Shown here in pieces: positions 1,857 through 47,236 of a stretch of 64,000 nt of DNA (its first letter is position 1; each line of letters opens with the position of its first letter). The notes under the pieces were generated by a model, which did no database searches, had not been told where the DNA came from, and saw nothing but the letters and a program-made list of their open reading frames with translations. Where the stretch lies: positions 1 through 64,000 of the forward strand of contig NW_024881967.1 of NCBI RefSeq assembly GCF_019059575.1, read 5' to 3'. A program made the position numbers and the translations under genes. Source of the stretch: Amphibalanus amphitrite. Lineage: Eukaryota; Arthropoda; Thecostraca; Balanomorpha; Balanidae.

Positions 1857-2300
1857 TGTGCCGATACACGCTCCTCGGCCGCCGTTCCCACGCCATGCAG
1901 AGAATGCCCCCTTTGAGACGACCGTCTGGGGGCGGCGTCTGAACAGCTGCGCGCCGCCCGTCCCAAATAGAGCACGGCTCGGCCTGCCGCGGGGGTGGTG
2001 GGGACAGCCCGCTCCCCGGCCGAGCACTGGTTACCGGAGCCCGCGGCGCGGGGGAGCGGCCGGCAGCTGCGCCCGGGCGTGGGAGTGTCTCCGTTCCCAC
2101 GGCTGCCGCGGACGGCGCGCACCTGGCCCGTGCCGGCCACGGGTCGGCCGACCCCGTGACCCGTGCTGACGGGACGGACTCTAATGGATGCACGGACACG
2201 GCCTCCCCCCGGACACACAGGCGGGCACAAAATAACAGCCGTAATGGACAACAGGCAAAAACGGGCCACCGCGGACGCGCTAGTGCTTACCACCCGCGCT
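1857..2300. promoter_or_regulatory. GC-rich island with three Su(H)-type sites
   Basis: This CpG-rich block in AT-rich surroundings contains TTCCCACG at 1885-1892 and an inverted pair of Su(H)-type sites at 2078-2101. E-boxes flank the pair: GCAGCTG at 2063-2069 and CACCTG at 2120-2125. The order E-box, inverted Su(H) pair, E-box is repeated in the HES promoter at 21,318-21,407. An enhancer role is inference. Confidence 0.45.
2078..2101. promoter_or_regulatory. Inverted Su(H)/CSL pair, 8-bp spacer
   Basis: CGTGGGAG and TTCCCACG face each other across the 8-bp spacer TGTCTCCG. The block matches the pair at 21,341-21,364 at 21 of 24 positions, including most of the spacer. Classical Notch-dimer sites (SPS) use the same head-to-head orientation but a spacer of about 15-17 bp, so this is not a standard SPS. 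Confidence 0.5.
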
Positions 2301-4740: not shown

Positions 4741-5180
4741 GGTGTGAAGGGCATGAGCTAACCCGAATCGGTTGGTGTGTGGAACGGGACGAGACGCGAC
4801 CCTCTGCGACCCAGAAAAACACAAATCTGGGGAGTCGTCCTCGGTTCCCGCTGGCAGTCCGTAGCGTCTAGTGACTCCCCCCAGATCCAATTGCTTCGGT
4901 GGGGGAGTCCGGAGGGCGCGAATCACCGCGGGCTCTTCTTTCGCCGCTGCGCGCCGCCGGTATTTATTTACACTCGGCACGGGGAACTGGGGTCGCTCAG
5001 GGGCCGCGCACATGGGCAGAGGCGTGGGAACGGCGGCGAACTCGGCTCCGTAATGGGGGAAAGGAATGTCGGAGCACAGATGGCCAGCGTGCGCCGCCGC
5101 GCCGGCCGCCGCCGCCGGGCAATCACGTGCAGGCGACGGTCGGTTTTAGGGGCTCACTTTTCAACCCGTAATTAGGGGGA
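4741..5180. promoter_or_regulatory. GC-rich island with one Su(H)-type site
   Basis: CGTGGGAA lies at 5023-5030, followed by CGGCGGC. The same 15-base combination occurs on the minus strand at 1878-1892. CACGTG, a HES-class binding sequence, lies at 5124-5129. No E-box follows the Su(H) site at the 6-bp spacing used further right. An enhancer role is inference. Confidence 0.35.
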
Positions 5181-8690: not shown

Positions 8691-9345
8691 AGTCGGTAGA
8701 CACCGGCAGTTTTGGACTGGAGAGGCGTAAAATCACCCCTTTGGTGCAGGGACGCTCGTTAAGGTCGTTATCGATGGGCGTCCCTGTCACCAGCGGGCGC
8801 CAAACTAATACCCTCGGCCCCATCGGAGCCGACACGGCCGGACAGCCTCTTACCAAACAAACAGCACCCTCCCTCCGCCCCGAAAACAGCGCAGTCGCCG
8901 CGGCCGACCGACCCTCGGTCCCCGCCCCGGCCACTATCGCCGCACTCGGACCCGCCTCAGACCAATTAACCGGCCCGGCTAATTGTGTTTTGTCCCTGGC
9001 GAGCGGTCGGGCCGGACCGGGCGTCACTGCGCCGGCCGTAGATTTATCGCTAATCGTGCCGCCGGGCTGCCCGGCGCCGTGTCGCCACCACAATCACCTT
9101 TTTAAGCGCGGCCGGCCCGGTCAGCTCAACACCTGCCTCTTTTTCCCACGGATCGGCTGATCTGGCGGCGGGCGGCCGGCGGCGCGACGGCTGCCTGCGG
9201 CCGGCTCAGCTCGGTTTACGGTGACGGCTTTGGAGGGCTTACACGGCGCGGTTGCATTGCAGCGGCGGCTTACAGCGAGCGGCGGCTGGGGATGGCGCGT
9301 GGCCGGCACGAGATCGACCGGCACGACCGGTGGGGCCGGCCGCTG
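8691..9345. promoter_or_regulatory. GC-rich island carrying a Su(H)+E-box composite
   Basis: A CpG-rich block bounded by AT-rich DNA. Its main content is the minus-strand composite site at 9130-9150. Open frames across it exist on both strands, as expected of stop-poor GC-rich DNA, and none resembles a known protein. Confidence 0.4.
9130..9150 (-). promoter_or_regulatory. Composite site: Su(H) + N6 + GCAGGTG
   Basis: Read on the minus strand: CGTGGGAA, then AAAGAG, then GCAGGTG. It is one of six sites in the window with the same order, orientation and spacer length. Its spacer shares little with the others, so this copy is unlikely to be a simple duplicate of them. Confidence 0.6.
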
Positions 9346-9500
9346 AGCCAGCGCTGATGTCAGAGGGGTCGGCCCGCTGACCGCTGATGTAAGAGGGGTT
9401 GTCCCGCTGACAGCTGATGTAAGAGAAGTCCTCCGCTGGTGTGAGAGGGGTCTTTGATAATATCAGAGGCTCCTCTGCTGGTAACAGAGAGGTCCTGCCG
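9346..9500. repeat. Degenerate minisatellite, unit about 33 bp
   Basis: Three clear copies and two worn copies of a unit built on GCTGATGTAAGAGGGG sit just right of the GC island. No coding signal. Confidence 0.6.
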
Positions 9501-10740
9501 ATATCAGAAGGGTCTTCACCGCAGTGACCTTAGAGGGTCATGTCGTATTGCTTTCGTGATATCTGATTCATCCTAAACTGTTGTTGCGAAAATTGAAACG
9601 AAAAACAAACGCTAACAACTATGCGAGTGACACAAAATCAAAACTTTTGTTTTGTTTGAAACAAGCTAGTGAACGTTGAATTATGAACAACATATCGTGC
9701 CATTATTGTTGATAAATCCGGCAACGTCTTTGAATGTGGTATTTCTAACTAACAGCTCAGCCCATACCTAACTTCTCCATACCTAACTCCACCTAACTTT
9801 GCGATTTTTTATCTTCCACAGTACATATATAACCTGTGTCATATAATACGAGTAGATTTATATGTCACGATGAGCGGTTTCTAATACGCGCATAAAATGA
9901 CAAAGCTGCGGTCATAAAAGCCCACGCGTGTCAGTCAGATGCCAACCCAACACGTCGCCCACGTGTATTATAGCTGGCGTCTCTTGTCCACATTTCACTG
10001 TGATGACATTTTCCCAGAAAGTCATCACATACGAGCACGACAGCAGCACTCAACTTTAACGTCCGTCGATAATTATCTTGCTGGCGTTCCCTTCCAAACT
10101 ACTCGCTGGAAATTGAGACGCAGCGCCCGTCCCAGCTGTAGCGGCGACCGCAGAAGACAAATCTGTGTTATGGTTAGCCTGTTATCGCCATAGCAGGCCA
10201 GGTGGGCGTCATTACGGCCTGTGTTGCGCTAACTTGCAGTCGTTAGGGACCACACAGATGCACAGTGTAGCGTTTAAATGGAAGATAATTCCACCGGAAG
10301 TGCTCCTTTCTTGCTGACTTGTCTGAGAGAAAGGAGGCCTGGCAGAAAACTGCAATTATGATCCGGTGTAAGATAAATAAAGGCGTCGGGCTATTTATTA
10401 ATAATATATCAACGCACTTGTGAACCTTTTTGAACGCAGTGATCGACACCGTCTCTCACTCCTCGGCCAGAAAGTTTGTTTGACTTGTATAAAAACTGCT
10501 GTTTTAGCATAATCAAGCATGAATCCTAATATTCATATAATTGTCATAAAAAGCGAAGGCACTTGTGTGGTCTTGAACAACTGCTATTTCAGAAAAAGGG
10601 CAGGAAATGCCCAGATGTCTCTGCCGGTCATCAAACGAAGGTAAACCGTTGTTCCCTTCATTTTGCCTCTCGTTGACCGTAGAATGAGTAATAACACATT
10701 ATGTAGTCAAAGTCTGACACACTGCTGAGGAATCTGCAGC
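9501..10740. other. Non-coding, no gene recognised
   Basis: AT-rich. One CACGTG lies at 9960-9965. Nothing else is supported. Confidence 0.4.
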
Positions 10741-11350
10741 TGCGCGTGCGAGTTTCTGAGAACTTCCTGTCCGCTCGGACCCCCACCTTCACTTTTCACG
10801 CCCGAGCTGCGCTGATTCCTCCGAGTCGCCTCAGCGAACAAAGACGCGCTCAGCTTCCGTTTACGTCCAGCTCCGGAGGCGCCCTCCGGAACCGGGGCCC
10901 CTCGCTCAGGAAATTCTCCCAGTCTCCTCCGCTCACCATCTGCCAGCCATTGTTACACTTTCGCAGCGGCGGTGGCGGCGCGCCGCGTTCAAATCCGGCG
11001 CGCCGGCGGTGACGTCACCACGGCAGATCCGTGAGAAAATCGGACAGGTGGTGGCTAGCCGGCCGCACCACCCTTTTATGGGCCCAATCGGCTGCATCAT
11101 TGGCCTCCGCCGGCCGCCGGCGCTGCTTATCTGATGCCGCCCTCAGAATGGTAAACAGCGCCGTGGAGCGATATGCAGGCGATACTGGCGCGGCGGCGGC
11201 GGTGGCGCGGCGCGCTGCAGCTGGCGAGCGCGCGTGACTCACGTGCGTCTTGCACGGGCACGTGCGCCGTGCACGGACAGCGGACATGTGTTAGACGCCG
11301 GGACCGGTCGGACAAATCGCGGCGGCGGGCAGACGAGACGGAGAAAGCTG
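10741..11350. promoter_or_regulatory. GC-rich island with paired CACGTG sites
   Basis: A CpG-rich block with CACGTG at 11,240-11,245 and 11,259-11,264. HES/E(spl) repressors and other bHLH proteins bind this sequence. It has no Su(H) composite. Cis-regulatory function is inference from composition and motifs. Confidence 0.3.
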
Positions 11351-12950
11351 GTACATATCACGTTCTACAGCTCAAAATCGACAGCGGATTTTGGTGAAGC
11401 TCTGATTTCATCTGAAGTGGCCGTCTAGGAACCGCCTTATCAACATTTTAAATAAAAAATGTTTGAATGGCCGCGTATGAAACTGACTAGTGAGCAAGAA
11501 TTATGATCATCGGGAACCACCGGCAACTGGCAAGTATGTACTGCGGAATGTCTTTGTGACTTAATCCCATCTACTTGAAACTTAGAAGCTGAGATGAGTA
11601 TTAACTCAACCTCAAATGAATATGGAACATCTCCACTGCGCGACTAAGCCCTTTGTTCCACGCCATCCGTCTTGTAATAGTTTCATCAGGCGGCTGGTTT
11701 TTACACGTCTGAACAGATAATCTAATGAAAAAACCGCTCGCACGTGAGTCAAAATTAAAGCCCCAAAAGATTTTTTGGCCCGAACACGTCGTAGGCGTCG
11801 TGTCGCTCCACGATGTGCTAGTTCTGACATTTGAAGCCCTTTTTATTCTAGGTAATGTTCCTTTGCCTTCCCCGTTAGATGTCTACCTCGGGTTACCTAT
11901 TCGTTTAATTATGTCTGGTCGAATGGTCTTCATCCAATCTGATGGTAATTTTTCCATTCTCTCTTACCTCATTCCCAAGTAATGGACGGTTGAACTTTCC
12001 GAAACAGGGACATGCTTGAACATATGACATTTCAAGAATAGCGACGAGGGCCTGACTACCGCTGCAGATGTTCGGCAGGTCAGGTTTCTCATCGCACCCA
12101 CGACGGGTTATGGACAGGCTGCAGCTCACGTTTTCGGCTATCTCCGCCGCATGTGTGGATAATTAGCGTCATTTTTGCCCCATGTGCGGCGACTTGTACG
12201 AACACGTGTTGGTTGGTGCTATCAGCACTGTGACAAATGTCGGCGAGGGCAAGTGGGGACTTGCACAAGGAGTTAACACGTTCCGAGAACATGACAGCTA
12301 GAGGAAATTGTGCAATTACTGCAGCACTTCGTTATTATCAAGTGACGTCCACCTGAGCAAATGACATTGCAACAAATAAGACTGAAATTATTATGTTTTT
12401 GCGCTGTCCAAGTGCTTGCTTTAATAGGGGATACATTTGCATAAGAATCCTGTACCTACTACAAAGCGACAGCATGCACGAATAAATGGTGATGCAAACA
12501 ATAAGATACATTTATGCACTTCTCTTAACAATGCTGTGATGATATAGGGCATGAGATGTTTTTCACGGTTGTCGGTTGCCTTATTTTATTTATCTGCCTC
12601 GTATGTGTAAGTACATAGCAGAAATAAATACCTATGTGCAAGCATGTCCAGGTGCGCTTTTGCATTACTTTTCATCAAACTAGGAAACTTCATGAACACG
12701 AACAGCCAATGACTTGCAATTCGTCCACTGACAAAATCCAATCACCATTTGCAGTACCACACCCTCTGTTTCCATTATGTAACCCTGGCTGTGGCTACAT
12801 CCACAATGACTGCTCTCTCTGAATGGCGTCATCAAACAGTAGTCGTAACTCGGTGTTAATGCCACCACCCCATTTCGATCGGTCGAAACTCAAATTCAGC
12901 ACCGTCCGTGAAATTCATATCAGTGCGCCCTCGCACGCAAATCAGCGATT
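11351..12950. other. Non-coding, no gene recognised
   Basis: AT-rich DNA with no supported feature. Confidence 0.4.
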
Positions 12951-13620
12951 TCGATTGCGCCGCCATTGAGATACAGCCGACGAGTCCGGAAGCGGAGTCA
13001 TCGATTTTGTTTCAATTGCGCGGCGTCATCCATTGAGATCGGCGGCGCGGGTGGAGCGTCACGTGCTTCCGTGACGCGCCCCGCCCGCGTCACGGTCACG
13101 CGGGACGTCACGTGCTCGCCACCCGCCGCCCCCGCCGCCGCCGCCGCCCGGCCGAGCCGTGGGAACCGGCGGCAGGTGTGCAGAGGCCAGTCATTACCAG
13201 CGCTGGAGCCCATTCACCGCGACGTGATCGCAATGGGATGCGGCCGGCGGCCCTTTTTCAGAATGACGGTTGCGCGCGGCGCGGCGCGGGCGTGGGACGC
13301 ACGCGGCGCGCCGACCGCGAGTGGGCCTCGCGCGCGAGCTGTGACGCAGCGGTTTGGAGTGGGGGCCGGATGGGCGGGCCGGCGCCGGTCATTGATGAGT
13401 GCTCGGACGGATTAGCGCGCGCAGCACTGCGGTGGGGTTGGTCCGCGGCCACCGGCGCAGGTTCTCAATGGGGAGACCGGCAGCTGGGGCGACCAGCGAG
13501 GTCGGAATGACGACGGACGCGGCGCAAATCGGCCAGACGTGACGCGGCAGAATCGGCGCGGTTTGTCGCCCGGCGCTTCTGTCCCATCTGCTAAGCTGAG
13601 TGCTGCTCTCTGACATGTTT
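12951..13620. promoter_or_regulatory. GC-rich island with CACGTG cluster and composite site
   Basis: CACGTG occurs at 13,060-13,065 and 13,109-13,114 and CACGCG at 13,097-13,102, all class C/HES-type sequences. They lie immediately left of the Su(H)+E-box composite at 13,158-13,178. This mixture would suit an element activated by Notch and proneural factors and repressed by HES proteins (inference). Confidence 0.45.
13158..13178 (+). promoter_or_regulatory. Composite site: Su(H) + N6 + GCAGGTG
   Basis: CGTGGGAA, spacer CCGGCG, GCAGGTG. Both half-sites fit published consensus sequences: YGTGRGAA for Su(H) and RCAGSTG for proneural bHLH dimers. Confidence 0.65.
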
Positions 13621-14410
13621 GGGTCCATCCAGAGCCGCGACCCAGCAGAAGGGGCCAATATTTTCGCCAAATCTGGTTCAAGTGTTGCGTTTTTCAGCGG
13701 CTGAATCCGGCCCTGACAGAAGGATTGGTAAAGCACTGCTCCGTTCAGCCACACGGCAGGCACGAACCGGTGGCAAGTCGTGGCGCATTGGAGGCGAATC
13801 GTGGCGCATGAGTGGCGAATCTGACGCGATCGTGCCCCCAGACATCCGCCCGCATCTCAACGGCGACCCCCGTCGGATCGGTTTGTGCATGGCCTGTCAG
13901 ACAAAGACGGAACATTGCTGTGTGTTCTGACCAAACATATTCGCACTGGTCTGACTTAATGCTACATTTCATCATGCAGTACAGATAGTTTTATTCCCAG
14001 CCTGAGGGCTTATGCCAAAAGCATTTTTTATTGTTTTAAAGTAGGTACTTAACCTTTTTTGGCTCCACAAAGCCATGAAAATAACAGATAAGCCCTAGAA
14101 GTGGCGTTGCTGAATGTGCGCAAATGCAGATGCAAAACGATCATAAATAACAACTCAATCTAGGTCGATTTTGTTCCTTTTCCTTTTGTTCCTTCACAGC
14201 GAACGCCTTTTTCTGCCTTAAAACTTCTTTGAAAAAAATACTCCGAATGTGTCCGCAAACCTTTTTTCGATAAAAATATATGAACAGTGGCCCAGAAACG
14301 ACAACAAACCGCCGCTTGATGCTCGGTAGCCCGGAAGCACCGAAGGGATTCAGAAGTATACTGAGCTAAGACTGACTGGAGGAGCCTCGGGTACACATCA
14401 GCATACAAGT
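13621..14410. other. Non-coding, no gene recognised
   Basis: A transition from GC-rich to AT-rich DNA. Around 13,770-13,820 there is a short internal repeat (GTGGCGCAT and GGCGAATC motifs, twice each). No gene seen. Confidence 0.4.
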
Positions 14411-14567
14411 CACCGCTGAGGACAGGAGCGGTGACGCGGGCTGAGCTGCGCCAGCTCGGGACCGTCTGCCGGCCTCGGCAGCCCGCCCGATACGGGCTGC
14501 TCAGCCGGCGGCGCGTCTCCGTTTACGACACAGCTCGGCCGCATACTAAGCTGCGGCGAGCGTTCAC

Positions 14568-14588
14568 TGTGGGAACCAGCGGCAGGTG
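14568..14588 (+). promoter_or_regulatory. Composite site: Su(H) + N6 + GCAGGTG
   Basis: TGTGGGAA, spacer CCAGCG, GCAGGTG. The spacer differs by one base from that at 13,158. Confidence 0.65.
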
Positions 14589-14794
14589 GGCCGCGAGACG
14601 CTTATCTGATCCCGCGGCGCATTCCTCCGACCAGGGGCGCGTCCCGCCCGCCGCCGCCGAGCCGAGACGACGCGCCGACGACAGCCGGCGACGACGGAGC
14701 GTCGCTGTCGACGACACCCCTGCAGACGCCGCGGATACGGATTCTGAGCAGTAATCGCCACGCACTTTTAGAATGTGGATCGCTCATGATTGTT

Positions 14795-14820
14795 CAATAC
14801 AATACAATACAATACAATAC
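14795..14820. repeat. (AATAC)n microsatellite
   Basis: Five uninterrupted copies of a pentanucleotide inside the GC-rich island. Confidence 0.9.
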
Positions 14821-15546
14821 GCCGACGAAGAGGGTCGGTTTCATGGGAACGGGAGCAGAACTCCGCGTGGGATGATATCTGGCGGTGTGTCGGCTTATCG
14901 GAGCTTTTCCCGCGGTGGTGAGGAAAGTCGGTGGCCGGTGGTGGTGGATCAGCAGGAACAGAAGGATGATTGGCCGTCATTGACGGCTCGGGCAGTCGGT
15001 AATGGGTGTGGGAGAGGCGGCCCGGTGGCTCTCCCAGGCGGTCCGGGTCCGCCCTCCCACCCAGCGGGTCCGCCCCTCGCACTCAGTCCACGATCGGTAT
15101 CGGTCGATCGGACAGCAGACGTCGGCACGGGTTCGGTTTCCACTGGTCTCCCCGGGGCCCTGTCGCTGCCTTGTTGGCCACTCAGGCCGTCCAAACAGCT
15201 TTACCACAAGACAGCTGATGGACAGGAAGACAGGAGGCCCAACAATCACTTCTGCTGTGCAGCTTGCATGCTCTTTGTTACGGGCTGAAATAAAACAATA
15301 TAAAATAACCCTTAGTGCCGTCTCCCCACCCTCTGTCCCGTATCTCTCATCAGTGCACCACCGTTTAGCAATAACGCCACCCTCCGAGCCTCCGTGGAAG
15401 CCCCCTCCCCTCCCGTCCCCACCTCATCAGCGTCTGCAGTCGGCCGGCTTCCTGAGCCGCCCGGCAGCCACCCATATGGACCCTCCGGGGGCGCCCAAAT
15501 CACTCTCGGTTGGCCCTCGGCGCCCGCATGCTCGACCGGCTCGCTC

Positions 15547-15567
15547 CGTGGGAGAATCGGGCAGGTG
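15547..15567 (+). promoter_or_regulatory. Composite site: Su(H) + N6 + GCAGGTG
   Basis: CGTGGGAG, spacer AATCGG, GCAGGTG. First of three composites within 158 bp. It starts exactly 40 bp before the next. Confidence 0.65.
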
Positions 15568-15586
15568 CCGCCGAGGAGGTCCGATC

Positions 15587-15607
15587 CGTGGGAGCCGGCG
15601 GCAGGTG
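15587..15607 (+). promoter_or_regulatory. Composite site: Su(H) + N6 + GCAGGTG
   Basis: CGTGGGAG, spacer CCGGCG, GCAGGTG. The spacer equals that at 13,158. Confidence 0.65.
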
Positions 15608-15683
15608 GAGGCGGCCGCGGCTGTTCGGCGGCCTCCTCGGCCCCCCGCCGGCGCCGCGCCGCCGCCTCTGACCCAGTGGCGGC

Positions 15684-15704
15684 CGTGGGAGTCTGCGGCA
15701 GGTG
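15684..15704 (+). promoter_or_regulatory. Composite site: Su(H) + N6 + GCAGGTG
   Basis: CGTGGGAG, spacer TCTGCG, GCAGGTG. Third member of the 15.5-15.7 kb cluster. Confidence 0.65.
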
Positions 15705-15860
15705 GTGCAGCGCCGCGGCCGTAATCGCGCCCGTGATGCTGCTCCGGATTACACCGATTACGGGTGGATCAAGACGCTGTGCGGGCGCGCCCGGCCGGTC
15801 ACCGTCGCCGGCGGCGGACCGGGCCAGATCGGAGCCTGATTGAGAGGCCGCCGGATTGAT

Positions 15861-21307: not shown

Positions 21308-21548
21308 ATCTGGGCGCCAGGTGCGTCGCGCCTCGCGCGCTGTGGGAATGTCTGCGTTCCCACGCCGCGGCGGCCGCCCCCCGCGCGCCGGGCGCCGCGC
21401 GCACCTGGCGGCCGCCGCTTAAAACCGGCCGCCGCCGCCGCCGTCGGCATTACGGTCTGAGCCGGCGAGCGGTGAGGAGCTCCAGCGAGAGAGGCGATAT
21501 CAGTGAGCGAGACACGTGCTGACGAGCGGTGAAACGAACAGAGACGAG
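21011..21548 (+). promoter_or_regulatory. Promoter and 5' UTR of the E(spl)/HES gene
   Basis: This CpG-rich block precedes the start codon. It holds an E-box CAGGTG (21,318-21,323), an inverted Su(H) pair (21,341-21,364), CACCTG (21,402-21,407) and a TATA-like TTAAAA near 21,419-21,424. CACGTG occurs at 21,218-21,223 and 21,513-21,518, suitable for HES autorepression. An initiator-like TCAGTG lies near 21,500. The transcription start is not determined. Confidence 0.6.
21341..21364. promoter_or_regulatory. Inverted Su(H)/CSL pair in the HES promoter, 8-bp spacer
   Basis: TGTGGGAA and TTCCCACG face each other across TGTCTGCG, about 185 bp upstream of the start codon. Promoter-proximal Su(H) pairs are a hallmark of direct Notch targets of the E(spl)/HES family. 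The 8-bp spacer is about half the classical SPS spacing, roughly one helical turn shorter. Confidence 0.6.
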
Positions 21549-22432
21549 ATGGCACCCTGCCAAGTGATCCCTTCGGAGTCGGCGAGCCCCAGCGACTACA
21601 AAAAGGTGAGCATCGGCTGCAGTTTTTTATTACAGCATCTTAAAATCTACTTTTTGCAATTTGTACTTTAAAAATATTTCGAGTTCAATGCTTTGTTCTC
21701 CTTTTACGTTTCAACGCTTAGTTTCACCATTAGTCGCATGGAATTGTTCTCGCCCATTGCCTGCTGTCACTGTTTGCACATTGGACAAGGTCTTGACGGT
21801 CTCTTTCCGCTGTTCCTCAGGTTCTGAAACCTCTGCTGGAGCGTCGGCGTCGGGCGCGCATCAACCGCTGCCTGGACCAGATGCGCGACCTCATGGTGGA
21901 CGCGCTGTCCATGGAGGGCGACAGCGCCGCCAAGCTGGAGAAGGCCGACGTCCTGGAGCTGGCTGTGCGTCACCTTCAGAAGCTGCAGGCGCAGCGGCGC
22001 GCCGCCGCCCCCGCTGCCCCGGCCGCGCCGGCCGCCAGCCCTCAGATCGAGCTGGATCGGTACCGCGCCGGGTTCTCCGCCGCCGCCACCGTCGTCAGCC
22101 GGGCCCTGGCCTTCACCCCTGGCGTGGACGTGGAGCTGGGCACCCGCGTGATGCAGCACCTGGGCAGCTCGTTCCGCGCGCTCGACCAGCGCCGGCTGTC
22201 TGCGCCGCTGACGGTGGAGGTGCCCCAGTTCCGCACCCGGGTGCCGGTGACGGCGTGCCCGGCCAGCCCGGCCGACAGCTGCAGCTCTGGCTACTCGAGC
22301 GGCGCCGACAGCGGTCTCCTCACCGTGGTGACTCCGGTGTCTGCGGCCCCGCGCGCGCCGGCCTCCTCCCAGTGCAGCCCCAGCCCGCTGAACCTGAAGC
22401 TGGGCGACGAGGGTATGTGGCGGCCATGGTGA
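21549..22432 (+). CDS. E(spl): Enhancer-of-split/HES bHLH-Orange transcriptional repressor (two exons)
   Basis: Exons are 21,549-21,605 and 21,821-22,432, giving 222 residues. The 215-bp intron has a GTGAGC donor and a CTCAG acceptor and keeps phase 0. The second exon opens with the basic region (about residues 20-36). This carries the proline typical of Hairy/E(spl) proteins (P23, in KPLLER). Helix-loop-helix follows to about residue 75, containing the family block AKLEKADVLEL. An Orange domain lies at about 98-140. A serine-rich SSGYSSGADSG segment (about 175-185) resembles the phosphorylated tail region of E(spl) proteins. The protein ends in WRPW, the Groucho-binding tetrapeptide. The family acts in the nucleus as Notch-induced repressors of proneural genes. 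Su(H) sites lie in the promoter and K-boxes after the stop. Class and splice sites are seen directly. Orthology to a particular E(spl) member is not established. Confidence 0.95.
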
Positions 22433-22505: not shown

Positions 22506-22529
22506 CTGTGATATTGGGCCGCTGTGATA
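22506..22529 (+). promoter_or_regulatory. Two K-boxes in the HES 3' UTR
   Basis: CTGTGATA occurs exactly twice (22,506-22,513 and 22,522-22,529), starting 74 bases after the stop codon. The K-box (cUGUGAUa) is the known post-transcriptional element of Drosophila E(spl) transcripts, recognised by miR-2/6/11/13-type seeds. Neither a GY-box (GTCTTCC) nor a Brd-box (AGCTTTA) was seen in the next 250 bases. Confidence 0.75.
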
Positions 22530-32420: not shown

Positions 32421-35400
32421 TCAGTGGAAGGGCTCGTAGGTGGAGGGCTTCCTCCCCTCCAGCGCTGTCTCAGGCACCCTCTTCATCTCGGCCAGTGCCG
32501 GCCAGTGCTGCCTCTGGCGGCGCAGCGCGCGGCGCAGGTTCGCCAGCGCGGCGAGAGATGGCGCGCCGAGCGGCGGCAGCGGCCGCGGCGGCCGGCCCAG
32601 CAGCGGCGGCAGACAGGCGTCCGAGCCGACCACCACCAGCCGGCCGCCGGCCAGCGCGCGGAGGTGGTGGGTGACGTGCTCCGCCAGCGCGGCCGACTCC
32701 GGCGGCACGGCCGGGGCCAGCAGCAGCACCAGCTGCGGGCACAGCTGGTAGGCCAGCGGCAGCAGCAGCTGCGTCAGCAGCGCCACAGCCTCGCCGGACT
32801 CCCAGCTGACGTCCGGGGACGGCGACTCCAGCATCAGCGGCGTGCGGATCCGGTCCGCGCCCGCCCACGAGAGCTGAGAGAGGCGCAGAGAGACGCGGGG
32901 GTCAGCTGGAGGGCCGCCGAAACACACAGCGCGCTAAGGTGATTCGAGACAGAGCCCAGAGAAAGGACACTGGGTCACCGAAGGAGCCATTAAAACAAAG
33001 ACCCGCTAAAGGATGAAGCAGAGGACAAGTTGAATGCATCGACGACAGGGGGCAGCAGCTGCAGCTTCCGCAGCCACTTGGGGTTGGCAATCACAGGACA
33101 AAAGACTCCGCGACTGCTTACCAGCGGCTCGACGGTCGGCGACAGTTCGGCGGTGGTCTTCTGATCGTGGTGCAGGTTCACCACCTCACAGCCGCCGCCA
33201 GAGATGGTCAGAACCACGGCCTCGGCGTCCGAGGGACAGGGCACCATCAGACCCCAGTCGGGAGCCACTGGGGGAGAGATAGAGGTGACATACAGAGGTC
33301 AGTGAGACTGGGCACCATCAGACCCCAGTCGGGAGCCACTGCGGGGGAGAGGTTACAGTCAGAGGTCAGAGACAGGGCACCATCAGACCCCAGTCGGGCG
33401 CCACTGCGGCGAGAGGGGTAGAGGTCAGGGTCAGTGGGAGGCTGCTTCATCCGATGATGTAGCTTCTATGCCGTCAACTTGCAACACGAACCGCAATACA
33501 AAAAAAAAACAGCTGTTCCGACTTCCGAGATATTTCGCATCAATTCACATTGAGATTTTCTTTATCTAAAACCTTTGCTGTCCCCTAACCAACCTCACGA
33601 ATGATAACATAGTGGGTGTAAAATGTAAATACAACACGATCAGACAGCTCGCCCTAACCACCGACCAGTCCCCCGCGCCGCTGTCGCAGCCTTCCCACAC
33701 TGACCGCAGAGTGGCGAGTCTCTCCAGTCGACCACCAGGAGGCGCTGACAGCGGGAGAGCGCGTGTCGCGCCGCGGCCGGTCCGTCCGGCTCGATACAGG
33801 CACAGAAGCCGGCCACGGCCCGATCTTCCAGCACGGCGTCAATGGCCTGGGGGTGCGGCACAGGGGCTGGTTATCAGAGGGCACTGACGTGATACACAGG
33901 GCGGAGGGGAGCGGGAGGACAGCAGTCTGCTGACCAGGGCTGAGGGGTGAGAAGAAAAGAAATCACACACAGCTTAAAAACAAAGAAAGAAATTTCACAC
34001 ACAGTTTGATTGATTGCGTGTTTGCAACTACGATAACTGAACAATGGAAGATGGGCATATAACTCGTAACATACACGCATAAACCAATAACGTTTGAACG
34101 TCGCGGCCCGTCCGAGTCCATCTGTTCCCTCCGTCTGACCTCAGTGATTCCATCTTCCTGACAGGCGTCTGCTCCGCCGCCGACCTCCAGGCAGCCCTGC
34201 ATGAGCGCCGCCACAGACTCGGAGCGGATCACACTGTAGAGCAGGAGAGGGTTAGATGGGATATTGTACAGTCCCGTCCTCCAGCCAGCCCTGCATGAGC
34301 GCCGCTACAGACTCGGAGCGAATCACCCTGTAGAGCAGGGGAGGGTTAGATGGGATATTGTACTGTCCCGTCCTCCAGACAGCCCTGCATCAGCGCCGCC
34401 ACAGACTCGGAGCGAATCACCCTGTAGTACGGTACGGTACAGCCGGGTAGGCGTCAGCGGAGTGTCGTACAGATAGGGGAACCAACATCTACACAATTAA
34501 TTGTATACGTATTCAAAGCAAACATTCAATATGAACTCAATTATGTTTACTAATGCACACCGTACAAACGTGGTAATTCAAAGCGCGGTGACCTAAAAGG
34601 GCTTGGCGCTGAGCCACTCACCCGTTCATGGGGTTGGGATGATGGTGGTGCGTTTTGGCCACCACCAGACGACACGGGGCCACAGTTAGGTCGGTATCTG
34701 TGGAACGGAACGACCGTCACAAGCGGGCATTGAGACACCAGCAGATGACACGGCAAAACAGACAGATTCGTATCTGAAGAACAGAGCAAACGTCACAGGC
34801 GAGTACCAGTGACTGAGTTAGTCTGTATATACATATTACATAATGCTTACAGGGCAATTGCACTACCCGAAACGTCCACTGCGACCACTGCACTTCAGGG
34901 TCGAATGGGGCTATCATTCGGAGATTCTTTCCTCAAAATGCTTACGAAAACACCCACAGTGTTTACGCTTACACCCTTGACGTATCTACTGATAAACCAG
35001 TACAGTCCCGACAATGAGAAAACTCCCTTACACCACTAGTGGCGTTCGATCCGGTCCATCCTGCCCAATCGCGGCGGTGTTAACTGGGCGAGACACGGCG
35101 ACACGGACCGGCGGGCGCTGATAATCGGACAGCTCAACATCCAATCGTTAAAGCCCAAACTACCGGATCTGCGTGCGGTGATCAAAGATGTATACGGTTT
35201 TCACATACTCGGGCTATGTGAAACTTGGCTTTCCACCAACACCCCGAGCCGACTGCTGAATGTCCCGGGCTATCAACTCTACCGCGCCGACCGCCCTAAA
35301 CAGAGCAAGTTAGCGGCAGGCCACGGCGGTGTAGCAATTTTGGCGCAAGAAACACTCAAGGTTGTGATATTGCCCACACCAGTGACAGAAAATCAAGAAC

Positions 35401-38400
35401 AGTCGAATTTGGAGATAATCTGGGCGCAGATACAGTCGGGAAATGGTCGGCAGATCCTGTTCGCATCAGCTTACAGACACCCCACCAACACGGTACATCA
35501 AGTAACTGCAGACCTAGATGACCTGAACGCCCAGTTAAACTACATGATGACAGCTCACCCACGCAAGCATGTGATACTGTCAGGTGACTTTAACGCGTGT
35601 CTACTGAAGAACAAATCACCGGGCGTCAGACTAATGGAAGTGTTGCGCTTGAACGGCCTAGTGCCTGTCAATTTGAAAAGGCCAACATACCGACCAGCTG
35701 CCTCATTGATTGACGTTATCGCAACTAGCCAGAGCGGAAACGTTGTGAGATCCGGTGTTACTCGGTGCCATTTAGGAGGCCCGCACGACTACACTAGGAT
35801 AATGATACGACAAAACTGCAAGAGCCGCGCCCACAGAAGTGTCTCTATCCGAAAGCGTTGCCTGGGCAGCGTTGACTCAACCGAGTTCAATGTCTACTTG
35901 TCGCGCATTGACTGGAACGGGGTGTGGCTGAGTGGCAGCACTGAGGCGGCGTGGGAGTCATTTGTGGCCGTGTTTACCCGAGCCTTGGACACGGTAGCAC
36001 CGATACGGCGAGTGCGGGTGAGACCACAGGGGGCGCTACCTGTGACCGCGGCTACCCGTGACCTGATGGCCAGCCGGCGCCGTGCGCTCACAGATACATC
36101 GGCCGCCGGACGCGAGCGGTACAAGGCTCTCAACCGCCAGTGCCGAGCCGCAATCAGGTCAGACGAGGCCTCCTATCTAGAGAATGAGTGCAAGAAAGCA
36201 GGTCCTGCAAAAATGTGGCGTGTGTTGAAGCCGATTATAGGCGACAAAAAGGGAGCTTGTGATGTACCGCACGTCACACCAAACGCACTAAATGCATTCT
36301 TCTCTCAGATGGGGCGAGAGACTGCCAATAGCGTGCCAGTACCGTCTCGCACCCAGCCGGTGAGACTGCCACGGGTCCATACCTGTCAGTTTAAGGTGGA
36401 TACTGTGGACATTGATACGCTGATGACTGTCGTGCACAGCATGAAACCATCGACAGCCACGGGTCTTCAGGGTATAAGTGTGCAAATGATGCAGAAATTC
36501 TTTTATGGTATCGGGCCTGTCTTGCTCAATATTATCAACTCTAGTCTGTCTAGTGGCGAAATACCAACGGCATGGAAACATGCAGTCATCACACCGTTAC
36601 CCAAAACACCCAAACCGTCGCAACCGTCTCAGTATCGCCCTGTGTCTGTACTGCCAGCTCCAATGAAAGTGATTGAGCGCGTCGTGCAGCAACAGCTGGC
36701 TCAATACTTCAGAGACAACGGTCTGTTCACACACCACCAGCATGGCTACAGGGCGTCGCACTCTACAGAGACCGCTTTAGCTGTAGTGACTGAGCGCATT
36801 TATCGAGCGATGGACGGAGGCAGTGTTAGCATTTTAGTGTTGCTCGACCTGTCTAAATGTTTTGACAGCGTAGACCACCAGCGATTACTCACGAAGCTAG
36901 CACTGTATGGCATCGATGTGACTTGGTTCGCGAGCTACTTGGCCGGCCACTCTCAACAGGTCAAAGTCAGTGCGGGTGAGGGAGAGCCGATCATGTCCGA
37001 CACTTTACCCAATGACAGCGGTGTATCTGTATACCAGGGCGGTTCTCTTAGTTGTATTCTATACGCCATCTATGTGAATGATATTGGGCTTTACGTTGAT
37101 GATGTAGAAGTTATTCAGTTTGCAGACGATACCCAACTTCTTATAACCGGACCAAAGAAACATCTTAACGCGATGATCACAACTCTCGAACGCGCTCTCG
37201 ATCAACTCGCAAATTGGCTCAATGAAAACCGGCTGAAGGTCAATGCCGCGAAAACGCAAATGATACTTTTCGGAACGAGGGCGATGCTGAAAAACCAGCC
37301 GAAGATATCGGTAAACTTCTGCGGCACAGCCATCGAGGAATCCCGCGTAGTTAAGAATTTAGGACTTTATATGGATAGGCACCTGACATACGTAGATCAT
37401 GTAGACCACGTGGTAGGAAAATGCAGTGGCATTCTGGTTGCGCTGACGCATGCAAAGCATAGCCTTCCAAAAACCTCGCTCAAGCCACTGGTCAGCGCTC
37501 TGGTTATGTCTGCCGTTAGATACTGTTTGTCCATCTATAGCACGTGCACAAAAACAGAACTCCATCGCATACAGAAAATCATACATTTTGGAGCGAGAGT
37601 GGTCAGCGGAAAGAAAAAGTTTGAACATATTTCTGGAGTGCTCAAAGACCTTAAATGGCTAACAGCATCTCAACTTGCTCAATACCACCGCGTCCAGATG
37701 GTCAGCAAAGTGCTGGCATCAGAGCTTCCCCAGGCATTACACGATATTATCACGGACGCAGACCGCCAGCACGAACACGACCACCAGACACGACAGAACA
37801 ATCGGCTGAGACTACCAGCCATTCGAACAGAGACTGGTAGGCGCCAGCTTGCGTACAGTGGCGTACAAATGTACAATGATGTGTGCCAGGGCAGAAGAGA
37901 TCACGACTCATTCAGGAAAGCACTCTACCGATTTGTACGGCGTGAACCGGACTAAAGAGTTAAGCCATGCGTGTATGCATGTGTCTCCAATTTTATGTGG
38001 ATGGATGTTGGTGTGTGGTACATGTGTTATCCTATTTTTAGTGCAATTTTACCAACCGGACGTGCGCAAGTGAAAACCCGAAATTGTCGGATCTTGAGCG
38101 AAATAAATGTCTATGTCTATGTCTATCCCTTCACCCACCCCTGTTCCCACCCCACCGTCCCCTCCCTGTTCCTCACGCACCCTCTCTGAGCTGGTCGAGC
38201 TCCCGCCGGTAGCGCTCCTTCTCCTCCTCGCTCTGTACGGGACACGCGCCGATCGTGGGGTAGGTGGCGTCGGCGGGCGGCGGGTCGCCGCGGTACTCCA
38301 CCACCGGTATGTGCTGGTCGGGGGCCGCCGACGCGCCGCCCCCGCCGCCGCCCCCGCCCGGGGCCGGGTGGTACGTGTCGTACAGCGTCAGGAAGCCCCA

Positions 38401-41400
38401 GCTGCGCCGCTGGGAAGACACCACGTTCAGAATGGTCTCCTCCACACTGAAATGTGGGTACAGAATGAGAGATTAGACAAGACAGACAGGACCGAGGGTG
38501 GTTCTCGTCAATACATTCGATGCCATGAGTTAAAACATGGCATCGAAAAAAAGTAACATCATGCGACGTTGGTTGTTAACAAGTCGTATGGATAAGCCTT
38601 CGACTTTTTCCCTCGCATCATCCCAGGTGTTGCCCTATAATTCCAAGTAAATGGGTCAGCATTTCCCTCAGCCCTAGCCGCTTGATACAATCCATCATAT
38701 CTCTCCCACCAGCGTCTCTCAGTTGTCCTGCCGCCTCTCAATATTCCATCCTCTGGACGGACACACAGCGGTTCCCAGTCTGACCTGTCGCAGGGCGGCA
38801 GCAGGGCCGGTAGCGGCGGCGGCGGGTCACCCAGCAGCGCGCGCAGGGTGAGCGCGGCCGACTCGGCCAGCGAGGACAGGCAGTAGCCGCCCTCCAGAAC
38901 GACGGCCAGCCGGCCAGACGCCAGGCTCATCAGAGAGTGAGTCAGGTGCGCGAAACAGGCCGGCGATACCCGCATCTCACCCTGGGGGTACCGAGCCGGA
39001 GGGGAAAGGTTAGAAGTCAACAGGGCGGCGGAAGAGGTGCAAGCGGTGGTACAGAGCTCAAAATGATACATTAATGTCAGGTAATGAATACAAAAGCTCT
39101 CATATATAAGCCGAAAGCTTGATGGATACACGCAAAAGCAGCGAATCAGATATGAACCAAATTGAAGAAAGTCAGTAGTTCAAAAGTCCATTGAAGCGTT
39201 CTTGCTGGGATAATCATTTACCTTATTAGTGATTATGTGCATTGTAAGCAAAACGTCACCGATCCCGTCACCAGAGCCGCAAAAAGTTGACCAGATTATT
39301 TAAAGCCTCACCTGGGGACATCCGATTGCCGCGTCGTACCCAGCCGAGACCAGCACAACATCCGGCGCAAACTGAAACACGACGGGGCAGACAGCGGTTC
39401 ATACTTTGTCCTCATGTGTCAACTGCAGAGCAAAGGCTACACTCACAAACACGCACATACACTACTCTACCCCCTTTCTCCACCCTTTCCCCTCCCCTCC
39501 TCACCTCATAAGCGGCGGGCAGCAGTAGTCTGTGCCAGATGGCCAGGTAGTCCTGGTCCTCCATGCCGGTGCCATTGAGAGGCACGTTCCAGTTCAGACC
39601 CAGGCCGGGGCCGTCGCCCACGCAGTCGTACTCTCCTTCCCGCAGGCCGGGCCAGAACTCACCGTGCTCGTATCGGTGCACGGAAAAGTACATCACCCTG
39701 ACAGAGATGTGAGAGAATAGTCACAAGGGGTGCCGCAAGAGGAGCGATGTCAGTCTCAGATGTTGATATACGCCCATAAGGTCCATGAACTATTCCTTCT
39801 CTGATGGTGAGCTGGTATAAAATCAATGCAGTTAATAAAAGTACTAGTTCACAGAAGGTGTACAATTGTCTGCAGAGCTACAAAAAGACACAAAGAATCT
39901 TTTCTCACAATGGATGAAGTCATTTCACTCCCCCCAAAAGTCACCATCAGCCCTGACCGACCTGTCGTCGTCATAGAAGGCGCGCTGGGTGCCCTGGCCG
40001 TGGTGGACGTCCCAGTCCACAATGAGCACCTTGAGCCGACGCTGGGCCGCGCGCAGTGCTGCCAGCGCCACGTTGTTGAAGTAGCAGTAGCCGTTGAACT
40101 CAGAGGGCCCCGCGTGGTGGCCCGGTGGCCTGAGAACCGGCAGAGGGTGGGGCGGGTTAGAGAACATGAGGATTGGAGATCGGGAGGGGTATCAAAGCTG
40201 GGGCTGAGTGATAATCGTACAGAGATGATAAATCCAGTTATCTGGTGATTTGGGATATGCTATAAATTGTGTGTGACGAATCTCCTCCAAAAAGATGCTG
40301 TAATGTCTAAACAAAACGATAAACATAAAGCCTACCATGGTGTATCATCCAATTCATAAAAAAACCAGTCGTTAAAAATCTACAGACACGTTTGTAACTC
40401 ACCTGAACTCACATCCCACCCTTCTACCAAACCATTCATGTCCCTACCTTAGTGTCATACTAAACCCCGTTTTAACTCTATTCCGTATCCGATCATAGCC
40501 CCATCAACACTAGATGAGATCGGACTCGCAATCACCTCAGATAAACTTCCCCGTACCGTAATGTATCCCGCCCATAATCCTGATTAACCCACCCTGTGCT
40601 CGGCCCAGTCCCATCCCACCCCTAGATTGAAGCTTCCCGTTCCTCCTCCTCACCTGATAATCGCCATCCCGTTTCTGACTGTGCCGTCAATGACGGCATC
40701 CACCAGACTCAGCGTGGAGCCGGCAGACAGCAGCGCAGCCTTGTACGTGGACTGGGGTGCGGTGACGGGGCACAGACAGCGGAGGGTGGGGTGTTAGTTT
40801 AGCCGACAGGGCGGGGGAGAGTGGCACGGGACACTGCTAGAGACAGAAACACTGCACTCTAAAAAAGACACTCTGCATGTCTCACACCTGCTCTAAGTAC
40901 TAAGTAGACACCGTCCAGCGTTCCAATGCACTCACCGGGTGAAAGAAGACGGTGTCGTACTTGGACGAGAGCTGTTGCAGCGCCTCGACGTCGCGACAAC
41001 CACTGGTTCCGGCGGCCGTCGACAGATGGCTCTGCGTGTGAAACATGAGCAGCTCGGCCTCGGTGGCCGGCCGGCACGGGAGGCGTTCACAGCGCTCCAT
41101 CAGACCGAGCTCCCGACACCTGAGGTCGGTAAATGGTCAGGTCACGGTCATGACTCATCCCACGGCGCATGACCTGCTGCGACTGACAGGTTACATGGCT
41201 ACACGTTACGTTACATTTCACGACACCTGACATCGAGATAAAGCACAGATCAGCGGCCCAGTCGGTCACATCTGAAATACGAGACATGCTGATATGTACG
41301 AACTCACAATGAAGTGTGACCAAAATACGCATAAACCTGAAACCTCAATACAAAGTACTAGTACAGTGATCCTGTACAAAGCCCACACTCCCTGTCACCC

Positions 41401-44705: not shown

Positions 44706-45310
44706 GGACAAATCTTCGTATGGCAATTCTTCGTCGCGCAATTCCTCGTCCGCATTTCTTCGTCCGCAAATCTTCTTCGACGCATTTATTCGTGTCGCAT
44801 AACTTCGTCTCGCATTTCTTCGTAAGCGCAAATATTCGTAGCGCATTTTTTCGTATCCGCATTTCTTCGTACGCGCATTTCTTCGTCAAGCATTTTTTCG
44901 TCCACGCATTTCTTCGTCTACGCAAATCTTCGTCCGCATTTCTTCGTCCACGCAAATCTTCGTCTGCGCATATCTTCGTCCGCAAATCTTCGTCCACGCA
45001 AATCTTCGTCCGCAAATCTTCGTCCGCATTTTTTCGTCCACGCATTTCTTCGTCTACGCAAATCTTCGTCCGCATTTCTTCGTCCACGCAAATCTTCGTC
45101 CCGGCAAATCTTCGTCCGCAAATCTTCGTCCGCAAATCTTCGTCCGCAAATCTTCGTCCGCAAATCTTCGTCCGCAAATCTTCGTCCGCATTTTTCGTCC
45201 ACGCATTTCTTCGTCCACGCAACTCTTCGTCCGCAAATCTTTGTCTGCGCATATTTTCGTCCGCAAACCTTTGTCTGCGCTATTTTCGTCTCCGCAAACA
45301 TTCGTCCACA
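44706..45310. repeat. Tandem 13-16-bp repeat array, left arm
   Basis: Dozens of units of the form TTCGTCCGCAAATC or TTCGTCCGCATTTC vary in the two to four bases around the C/G core. They give repetitive Arg-Arg-Phe-Ala-Asp and Ser-Ser frames on the two strands, which I read as artefacts. Confidence 0.85.
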
Positions 45311-46036
45311 AATGTGGTTCAATAAAATCATGAAGAAATATCAGACCATCAAGTGATTGACGAATTTAATGCATGGAATGGATGATCGAAACTTTTGAAG
45401 TCAGGTAGATGAGGTCTGTCAGGTGAAGCTATTGTATTTGGGAGCCGATAATTGTAACATTCCATATCATTTGTGTCCCGGGCATTCTTTTTTTTCGCGG
45501 TCGATGAATGACAATATAATCTCTTGTACCCTCGCCGGCATAGGCGGCGGAACGGGGAGGGCACCGGGGCACCGTTCCCCTCTTTAATTTTGGCCTTTTA
45601 ACAGTAGCCCTATGGCCGTTGCATGGAAAGAATGGGACTAAAAGTCGGCAGTGCCGTGCCCCCCCCCCTAATTGAAGGTGTTCCGCCGCTACTGCTCGCC
45701 GGACCTATTTGTTTTCTACATACACGCCGGCCGAGGGGGGGGGGGGCGGGTACGACCCCCCCCCCATCGCCGTTTCGCCACTGGTGGTGCTAGCGCGTCG
45801 CGGAAAAAACGAGCGTGTGCGCCGTTACGAGACGCAGAGATTAATACCCGATTTTAAGGCCTTCTAGGTCAGGGGTCGGCTTACGGCCCGCGGGCCGGAT
45901 CCGGCCAGGAGGGTGACGGTTGGATCCGGCCCGCGACCATCTGACGTCCGGCCCGCGCAAGTTTTGTCTAGAAGTAGAATTAGACAAAAACACCCGCAAA
46001 TGGTGTTTATAAACTCATGAAGTGTGCGAAGGAAGA

Positions 46037-46432
46037 TGTAGTGTAAATTCGGAATTAGGAAGTTCGTGACAATTGTTGTAGTGTTAATTCGGAATTAGGA
46101 AGTTCATGACAATTGTTATGTTGCCATGGCAACCAGATCAAGGAGCCTGACTTATTGATGTGTTGGTGAGCTCTGATTGGCTAGGCCCTAGAATTCAGGG
46201 CTTTTGCCGAAGGGGATTGGTGGAGAGGTCAAAATCGGGGTTCACTGGCAGTGGGGGAGCAGTGCGGTGGGAGCAGCGAAGGCGAACGGCAGGTCGGGGA
46301 GTCCAGGGATGGAATGGTGTCGTTATTGGGGAGTTCCAGCCCTCTGTGAAGTGCGACTACTTTTGTGTTAACATCGCTTGATATTGACAATAATATCTAT
46401 CTTTTATCTAACTGGCTGTGAAATCGACCACA
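46037..46432 (+). repeat. 5' LTR
   Basis: It begins TGTAGTGT and ends CGACCACA. An internal direct repeat of about 44 bp (TAATTCGGAATTAGGAAG type) lies at its left end. By function it contains the element's promoter and polyadenylation signals, which I did not map. Confidence 0.92.
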
Positions 46433-46450
46433 AGCTATTTCGGCTTTACA

Positions 46451-47236
46451 ATGGCAGTGAGAATTGGTGATGCCGGAGATTTGGATCTGCGTTTGGTACC
46501 AGAATTCGATGGAGTTTCTCAAGACATCGCTGAATGGATAGATAAATTGGAGCTGGTGTGCCGTCTGAAAGGAGTGGAAAGCCAGGAGAGCGTCATTCCC
46601 CTGCGACTCACAGGAGGTGCATTCAGCGTGTACCAGCAGCTGGATGAAGAAAGCAAAAACGATGCGAAAAAGATTAAAGAAGCTTTGTTTACCGCTTTTG
46701 CTGCCGACAAATTCTCGGCGTTCGAGCAGTTCGTGGCTCGCCGGCTCAGAGCGAATGAATCAGTAGACGTCTACTTAGCCGACTTGCGTCGTCTGTCACG
46801 GCTGGCCGGAGGAGTAAACGACGGCGTCCTTGCCTGTGCCTTCGTAGCCGGATTGCCTGAAGAAACGCGTCACGCGCTGAGGTCGGGTTCTCGAATGGAA
46901 TCACTGGATCTCGCTCAAATTGTGGCTCGCGCTCGTGCGCTGATGGCTGACTACACGACGGTGGCCGCGGTGGCCCAACGGCCCGGCCAAGCGCCTATGT
47001 TGAACGGCGGAGCCAAGCGGGAAGGGCCGGTACTATGCTTCATATGTCGGCGCACTGGTCACCTGGCTAGACAGTGCCGGACAGGGAGGAGCCGAGGAGC
47101 CTGTTTCAGCTGCGGCCAGTTTGGACACTTCGCTGCTAAGTGTCCGGGAAACGGAAACGGAGAGGAAGCCTCAGCGCCAGCCTCCTCTCCCGGCCTCGCG
47201 TTAGTGGATCCCTGCCGCTCCGGCGCTTGTCAGTAA
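46451..47236 (+). CDS. gag: gag of the LTR retrotransposon
   Basis: The first ATG (46,451) lies 18 bp after the 5' LTR. The 261-residue product has a capsid-like N-terminal part and two CCHC zinc knuckles near the C-terminus: CFICRRTGHLARQC at about residue 196 and CFSCGQFGHFAAKC at about 218. These bind RNA for packaging. The pol frame overlaps the end of gag in the -1 frame, beginning at 47,140. A slippery heptamer lies just after the second knuckle. Gag assembles the cytoplasmic particle in which the element is copied. Confidence 0.9.
   Translation: MAVRIGDAGDLDLRLVPEFDGVSQDIAEWIDKLELVCRLKGVESQESVIPLRLTGGAFSVYQQLDEESKNDAKKIKEALFTAFAADKFSAFEQFVARRLRANESVDVYLADLRRLSRLAGGVNDGVLACAFVAGLPEETRHALRSGSRMESLDLAQIVARARALMADYTTVAAVAQRPGQAPMLNGGAKREGPVLCFICRRTGHLARQCRTGRSRGACFSCGQFGHFAAKCPGNGNGEEASAPASSPGLALVDPCRSGACQ

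Follow-up and report, generated by a model that had tools for sequence, protein, structure and literature searches.

We analysed a single locus, a window of 64,000 nt from Amphibalanus amphitrite (NW_024881967.1). The nearest identified gene in the region of interest encodes an E(spl) mbeta-like protein of 222 aa, a repressor of the bHLH-Orange-WRPW type. Conceptual translation placed its coding exon 1 at 21549..21605 and exon 2 at 21821..22432, both on the plus strand. The second exon carries the HLH domain (PF00010, 4.3e-13), the Hairy_orange domain (PF07527, 6.6e-10) and the C-terminal WRPW, with which the translation ends. The 222-aa product matches the A. amphitrite 'enhancer of split mbeta protein-like'; a scan of viral contigs with the protein gave no match. 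To look for a second gene in 1-21 kb, six-frame pattern scans for WRPW-, FFW- and Bearded-like motifs were made, and these returned three matches in the window, namely the WRPW of the E(spl) gene (22418), a WRPW at 15677 that was taken as chance and a weak match at 20682 on the minus strand.

In flies, genes of the E(spl) kind are turned on by Notch signalling. A head-to-head Su(H) pair (21341..21364; TGTGGGAA-tgtctgcg-TTCCCACG) precedes the start codon of the barnacle E(spl) gene by approximately 185 bp, and another is located at 2078..2101 (CGTGGGAG-tgtctccg-TTCCCACG). No other head-to-head pair spaced by 0-25 bp occurs in the window; the two have 8-bp spacers instead of the canonical 15-17, and neither coincides with one of the composite sites described below. 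TGTGAT, the K-box hexamer (as defined in PMC3261227), occurs twice directly past the E(spl) stop codon (at 22507 and 22523; 22507..22528, plus strand) and 24 times on the plus strand of the whole window. In flies, the 3′ UTRs of E(spl) genes characteristically carry K boxes.

A sequence-only reading of this DNA had noted six composites of the form YGTGGGAR-N6-GCAGGTG at 9130 (minus strand), 13158, 14568, 15547, 15587 and 15684. A rescan of the window recovered all six with exactly the coordinates, order, orientation and spacer length claimed. The count of six holds for this pattern; the published Su(H) and proneural consensuses give seven, adding a site at 11030 that matches both. The composites, located 5.8-12.4 kb upstream of the E(spl) bHLH-Orange gene, are 9130..9150 on the minus strand (CGTGGGAA-aaagag-GCAGGTG) and, on the plus strand, 11030..11050 (CGTGAGAA-aatcgg-ACAGGTG), 13158..13178 (CGTGGGAA-ccggcg-GCAGGTG), 14568..14588 (TGTGGGAA-ccagcg-GCAGGTG), 15547..15567 (CGTGGGAG-aatcgg-GCAGGTG), 15587..15607 (CGTGGGAG-ccggcg-GCAGGTG) and 15684..15704 (CGTGGGAG-tctgcg-GCAGGTG). 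In all seven, both halves fit the published consensuses, a proneural A site (RCAGSTG) being closely associated with a Su(H) site whose final base is G rather than A in three cases. Measured between centres, the E-box and the NYTCCC half of the Su(H) site are 12 bp apart in every composite. Two weaker matches in the N6 register (17007 and 40414) failed the consensuses and were left out of the count.

The arrangement is far from what chance would supply. On two strands of 64 kb, 0.0005-0.0007 composites are expected from whole or local base composition, and 0.002 under an order-3 Markov model trained on GC-rich 300-bp stretches. The earlier estimate of about 0.0005 was thus correct, and GC-rich islands cannot explain six sites. 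Under the strict patterns the window contains 18 Su(H) sites and 14 E-boxes forming eight pairs no more than 60 bp apart; six of these fall in the N6 bin and the remaining two are cross-pairs among clustered sites. With the published consensuses the N6 bin holds 7 pairs, compared with a mean of 0.06 over the 103 other spacing and orientation bins. When each E-box was shifted at random within 60 bp and given a random strand, 100,000 rounds never produced a bin of 5 or more and produced a bin of 4 once. Moreover, a motif-blind search of region 1-22600 for gapped pairs of an exact 6-mer and 7-mer (gap 3-15, at least four copies) returned 14 pairs, all of them the Su(H)-E-box composite, and none on two block shuffles of the region. 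Because of the low null expectations, the jitter result and the empty shuffles, a chance origin was rejected. In viral contigs used as a control, N6 was not favoured (N5, at least 120 matches; N6, 78; N7, 49), and no stretch held two matches among the matches listed, which included 80 of the at least 120 N5 stretches. The Notch/proneural context proposed from the sequence gains support from the motif-blind search together with the nearby E(spl)-type gene, the Su(H) pairs and the non-repeat nature of the sites.

The choice of E-box is equally uniform. Of the window's 24 YGTGRGAR sites, seven are paired with an E-box at N6, every one of these boxes being RCAGGTG in a single polarity, and none of the 24 has CAGCTG or a reversed CACCTG at this position; the plus strand of 1-22000 contains 21 CAGCTG, 13 CAGGTG and 11 CACCTG. 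Snail-type zinc fingers prefer CAGGTG. The RCAGGTG boxes (7/7, with CAGCTG in 0/7) would therefore also suit a zinc-finger repressor of the Snail/Scratch or ZEB type, likewise RCAGGTG-binding, acting beside Su(H). We consider this very unlikely, since Ac/Sc proteins also bind CAGGTG with high affinity and the box is common in E(spl) enhancers (PMC2529316). Contact of Su(H) with Daughterless (Da) is documented (PMC2686717), whereas the literature consulted, sought on other questions, gave no Snail-Su(H) contact.

The sequence-only reading had described spacers that vary in sequence and not in length. The constant length was confirmed, with N6 in 7/7, whereas the spacer sequence proved not to be free. 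Spacer position 6 is G and the base preceding the Su(H) site (-1) is C in all seven composites. Such fixed bases outside both cores could point to one unrelated factor, such as an insulator protein or one with several zinc fingers, reading the 21-mer as a long split motif. That both halves fit the published Su(H) and proneural consensuses, and that the composites neighbour an E(spl) gene accompanied by Su(H) pairs, makes this proposal hardly credible.

Copies of one scattered repeat family, a possibility raised along with the original six sites, were looked for around the composites. Ungapped flank identity over 60 bp per side reached at best 0.40 among the 21 pairs, within the range of shuffled sequence (mean 0.31, maximum 0.47), and neither blastn nor the ungapped comparison revealed flank homology beyond short or GC-rich stretches. 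A scattered repeat family or transposon was ruled out because the copies have no homologous flanks. A subtler alternative is that the sites descend from one small composite by local copying or micro-conversion, so that N6 reflects common origin and not a structural requirement. Two spacers, CCGGCG and AATCGG, are each used twice, and blastn aligned 15586-15624 with 15683-15722 (82.5% over 40 bp), 13118-13183 with 15640-15710 (76% over 71 bp) and the 13158 stretch with 9129-9184 (78.6% over 56 bp). On inspection, however, what aligns is the element itself together with GC-rich sequence, flank identity does not exceed that of shuffled sequence, and the seven composites show at least four spacer classes. 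Furthermore, erased flanks with both boxes retained would themselves imply selection on the boxes. Descent as the source of the spacing is therefore unlikely, although the repeated spacers and short inter-site alignments leave room for some local copying, including duplication of single sites.

Other origins of the motif were also considered. The N6 spacing sets both halves in one frame as W-E-x-x-A-G; a protein-coding origin was rejected because the clustered sites at 15547, 15587 and 15684 occupy three different frames. Splice donors (CAG/GTG) were ruled out by inspection, as GTRAGT follows none of the seven sites. The search for structured RNA gave no Rfam match at gathering score, and no tRNA was found.

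Given the sites, their one spacing and polarity, their non-repeat nature and the gene context, we favour, with a probability of about 0.58, the reading that the composites are distal proneural-cluster modules of the E(spl) gene, on which Su(H) and a Da-containing bHLH heterodimer are bound in fixed register. Each composite would accommodate one Su(H) molecule and, adjacent to it, one Daughterless-containing proneural heterodimer, the 12 bp between E-box centre and NYTCCC-half centre setting their helical register. The asymmetric CAGGTG core in constant polarity implies that the same heterodimer subunit would face Su(H) each time, and recurrence with exactly six bases between the boxes suggests contact between the two proteins on the DNA. 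We infer the identity of these proteins, their contact and the action of the modules on the E(spl) gene. Default repression by Su(H) is known from fly work. The composites may serve the mbeta-like gene at 21.5 kb as several distal modules for lateral inhibition: the bHLH dimer would activate in proneural cells, Su(H) would keep the gene down without signal and, with the Notch intracellular domain (NICD), Su(H) would contribute synergy via the Da-Su(H) contact. According to PMC2686717, Su(H) is bound directly by the N-terminus of Da, which acts in synergy with NICD on E(spl)m8; this synergy needed the paired Su(H) sites to be oriented as inverted repeats. With one Su(H) site removed, m8 is repressed by Notch (PMC3261227). 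In view of this orientation requirement and of the repressed one-site m8, the single-S composites could be repressive or Notch-independent elements.

The composites bear on whether Notch enhancers follow a fixed grammar or are flexible site clusters. Seven sites of one spacing and one polarity would amount to a natural spacing experiment, and the composite would provide a simple 21-bp probe for cooperative Su(H)-bHLH binding and its structure. As a tentative extension, Notch might use a third cis-code in addition to lone CSL sites and head-to-head pairs: CSL-bHLH composites restricted to one spacing and one E-box polarity, and recognised by Su(H) and Da/proneural proteins already assembled into a complex. 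Such composites would be employed several times over at the barnacle E(spl) gene, which also uses the non-canonical 8-bp Su(H) pair, and perhaps in other crustaceans.

Among known systems, the SPS+A modules of Drosophila E(spl) genes such as m8 share with the composites identical consensus sequences and a location upstream of a bHLH gene of the E(spl) group, where Su(H) sites occur together with proneural A sites. An SPS+A module is defined by two Su(H) sites placed head to head at about 15-17 bp (PMC8494340 and PMC3261227), whereas the barnacle composite has a single Su(H) site. Its A site is locked at N6, while the fly A site may be hundreds of bases off; in m7 its distance to the Su(H) pair is 232 bp in Teleopsis and 405 bp in Drosophila (PMC3261227), so close fixed spacing is not general. 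Lacking a second Su(H) site, the composites do not qualify as SPS+A. Also related are the single-S + A modules of Bearded-family/E(spl) genes such as malpha, which combine monomeric Su(H) with proneural sites and default repression with activation; we know of no fixed S-A spacing in them.

In box order and E-box polarity the barnacle composites may resemble the vertebrate PTF1 site; a CANNTG and a TTTCCC-type box stand at a fixed distance in each. In the vertebrate PTF1 complex (Ptf1a-E protein-RBPJ/RBPJL), a bHLH dimer and CSL occupy one bipartite composite, where both E-box and RBPJ box are needed at a critical spacing (PMC2586380). A Notch-independent Ptf1a/Fer1-Daughterless-Su(H) trimer needing both boxes at set spacing would account for the fixed distance, but appears unlikely. 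The centres are 12 bp apart in 7/7, instead of one or two helical turns (about 10.5 or 21); by nominal helical geometry, and leaving PTF1's real tolerance aside, this is 1.14 turns or 51 degrees past one turn. Unlike PTF1 sites, the composites have the full YGTGRGA Su(H) site (7/7), the exact TTTCCC TC-box occurring in one (9130), and they lie beside a presumed Notch target, the E(spl) gene with its Su(H) pairs. In open-licence literature of partial coverage we met no fixed Su(H)-E-box spacing besides PTF1, which is weak evidence. Rigid CSL-bHLH coupling, for which the sequence-only reading knew no 6-bp example, has a precedent in PTF1 and a counterpart in the Da-Su(H) contact.

Direct scanning of the window for the strict composite of Su(H) site, 6-bp spacer and E-box (YGTGGGAR-N6-GCAGGTG) returned exactly six matches, at 9130 on the minus strand and at 13158, 14568, 15547, 15587 and 15684 on the plus strand, confirming the places, order, orientation and spacing given in the sequence-only reading. 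With the published consensuses YGTGRGAR and RCAGSTG, the last Su(H) base being widened from A to R as in that reading, a seventh composite was found at 11030 (CGTGAGAA aatcgg ACAGGTG). The strict halves, 18 Su(H) sites and 14 E-box sites in the window, form eight pairs no more than 60 bp apart. Six of these show the N6 spacing in a single orientation, and the remaining two (46 bp downstream and 19 bp upstream) are cross-pairs between clustered sites. Using the relaxed consensuses, seven sites fell into the N6 bin, whereas the 103 bins defined by any other order, orientation or spacing (0–25) averaged 0.06.

Base-composition nulls, whole or local, gave 0.0005–0.0007 strict composites in the window on both strands, in agreement with the earlier chance estimate of about 0.0005. 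Expected numbers for both strands were 0.0006–0.0009 under Markov models of the window and 0.0009–0.002 under models trained on GC-rich stretches. When E-boxes were jittered within 60 bp and their strand was drawn at random, the largest bin in 100,000 rounds held 1 to 4 sites (4 once) and never five or more. Near misses at N6 (one with one mismatch, four with two) were not in excess over other bins. At one mismatch the top bin was the S-N7-inverted E-box arrangement with 4 sites, which we take to be the same sites on the opposite strand; at two mismatches inverted arrangements at 20–23 bp reached about 26–32 sites, taken to be simple repeats. A motif-free count of exact 6-mers and 7-mers with 3–15 bases between them, low-complexity words omitted, revealed 14 gapped word pairs present at least four times in 1–22600, and all 14 corresponded to the composite. 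Neither of two block-shuffled controls of this count contained a pair at four or more copies. In viral contigs, CGTGGGAR-Nx-GCAGGTG, the closest pattern permitted, matched at least 120 stretches with an N5 spacer (80 listed), 78 with N6 and 49 with N7, with a single match per stretch among the matches listed. Unrelated DNA thus neither favours N6 nor clusters composites.

Any CANNTG occupies the N6 place at seven of the 24 YGTGRGAR sites of the window and at none of the other 17. It is RCAGGTG in one polarity in all seven cases, six of which were originally found using a motif requiring CAGGTG. Since the plus strand of 1–22000 carries CAGCTG 21 times and CACCTG 11 times, besides 13 CAGGTG, it is noteworthy that the composites include neither CAGCTG nor the reversed core. 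The claim that spacers vary at fixed length held for length, N6 in all, and was too broad for sequence, which is partly constrained: the sixth base is always G, CCGGCG is common to 13158 and 15587, and AATCGG to 11030 and 15547. This G and the C preceding every Su(H) site (7/7) each have an uncorrected p of ~0.002 given flank composition, each as a single column of 36 examined. Two single Su(H) sites, 1885–1892 (minus) and 5023–5030 (plus), have CGTGGGAA-cggcgg in common and lack an E-box at N6.

Each composite with 150-bp flanks was compared with the window by blastn (E up to 0.01). Non-self matches were short stretches covering the element and GC-rich low complexity; among those between sites were alignments of 13158 with 15587 (27 bp, 92.6%), with 9130 (56 bp, 78.6%) and with 15684 (71 bp, 76%), and of 15587 with 15684 (40 bp, 82.5%). 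Ungapped comparison of the 60-bp flanks in 21 pairs gave a top identity of 0.40 versus 0.31 ± 0.04 after shuffling (maximum 0.47). Because matches were short or GC-rich and flank identity lay within the shuffled range, a scattered repeat family was ruled out. Local duplication could have generated composites, above all 15587 and 15684. A protein-coding origin was rejected, as three clustered composites occupy three reading frames.

Elsewhere in the window, a long ORF at 35040–37955 is of non-LTR retrotransposon type with endonuclease and reverse transcriptase domains. Foldback-like inverted arms at 44706–45494 and 52243–53031 (789 nt, 97% complementary, 14–16 bp tandem units) enclose gag/pol-like ORFs (46412–50223) with CCHC, reverse transcriptase and RNase H-like domains and an integrase core scoring just under the cut-off; these ORFs have a separate inner pair of 202-nt inverted repeats (45756–45957 and 50732–50933). 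A tandem array of a 286-bp unit spans 53218–62489 in three blocks, its consensus unit switching orientation at about 57010.

The composites lie in islands of 66–77% GC and precede, by 5.8 to 12.4 kb, the start codon of an E(spl) gene on the plus strand (coding exons 21549–21605 and 21821–22432), whose product carries HLH and Hairy_orange domains and a terminal WRPW. With 222 aa and 100% after rounding (one residue differs), the top match of this protein was 'enhancer of split mbeta protein-like [Amphibalanus amphitrite]'. At 184 aa and 78%, a further A. amphitrite record (P0007) is the shorter of the two and diverges in its initial and middle parts; the closest other named species was Pollicipes pollicipes (82%). 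These matches place the origin of the window in A. amphitrite or a very close relative. Past the stop codon there are two K boxes. Pattern searches and inspection by eye of ORFs of at least 110 aa identified no genes in 1 to 21 kb. Downstream of the E(spl) gene, a minus-strand ORF (38559–39179) weakly matched histone deacetylase (25 bits, cut-off 27.9). The surroundings of the composites, out to about 100 bp, contain no further CASSTG E-box; the remaining E-boxes there are one CATCTG, one CATATG and two CACGTG. The CACGTG boxes at 13060 and 13109 (TCACGTGCT), which precede the 13158 composite by about 100 and 50 bp, may be sites of E(spl)/Hairy-type or of class B bHLH proteins.

Two head-to-head Su(H) pairs with 8-bp spacers were detected, one in the E(spl) promoter (21341–21364) and one at 2078–2101. 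Their spacers are nearly identical (tgtctSCG), and both pairs have an E-box upstream and the identical 13-mer GCGCGCACCTGGC downstream. Canonical pairs are described as 15–17 bp apart (PMC8494340); the Glossina mgamma pair is given as 7 bp (PMC3261227), and we counted 7 bp in the dpn pair as printed in PMC2529316. The 8-bp pairs may represent non-canonical Notch dimer sites, or a promoter module that the E(spl) gene has in common with some second gene.

On composites with the sites, spacing, polarity and gene context established here, the left half would be bound by Su(H) and the right half by a Daughterless (Da) heterodimer. A requirement for one bHLH subunit to face Su(H) would predict such an asymmetric E-box with a single polarity and spacing. 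PMC2686717 describes direct binding of Su(H) by the Da N-terminus, which m8 also requires for synergy between Da and the Notch complex. In fly m7 the reported distance from Su(H) to the A site, the proneural E-box, is 232 bp in Teleopsis and 405 bp in Drosophila (PMC3261227), so that the N6 lock would be an extra feature. Two reports count against such a mechanism: synergy required that paired Su(H) sites be oriented as inverted repeats (PMC2686717), and m8 minus one site was repressed by Notch (PMC3261227). In view of these, the composites might instead be default-repression or Notch-independent elements.

The composites resemble the fly SPS+A code in their A site but lack its paired Su(H) sites 15–17 bp apart. 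Like vertebrate PTF1 sites, they combine a bHLH box with a CSL box at a set distance, and their order, strand relation and polarity presumably agree with those of known PTF1 sites. The distance, however, is 12 bp (1.14 turns) instead of one or two turns, and one of the seven contains TTTCCC; the composite is not classed as a PTF1 site. Apart from PTF1, no fixed Su(H)–E-box spacing was met in the open-licence literature, which is a weak negative. By analogy, the composite may nevertheless work in a PTF1-like manner, with a bHLH dimer and CSL assembled on one rigid element.
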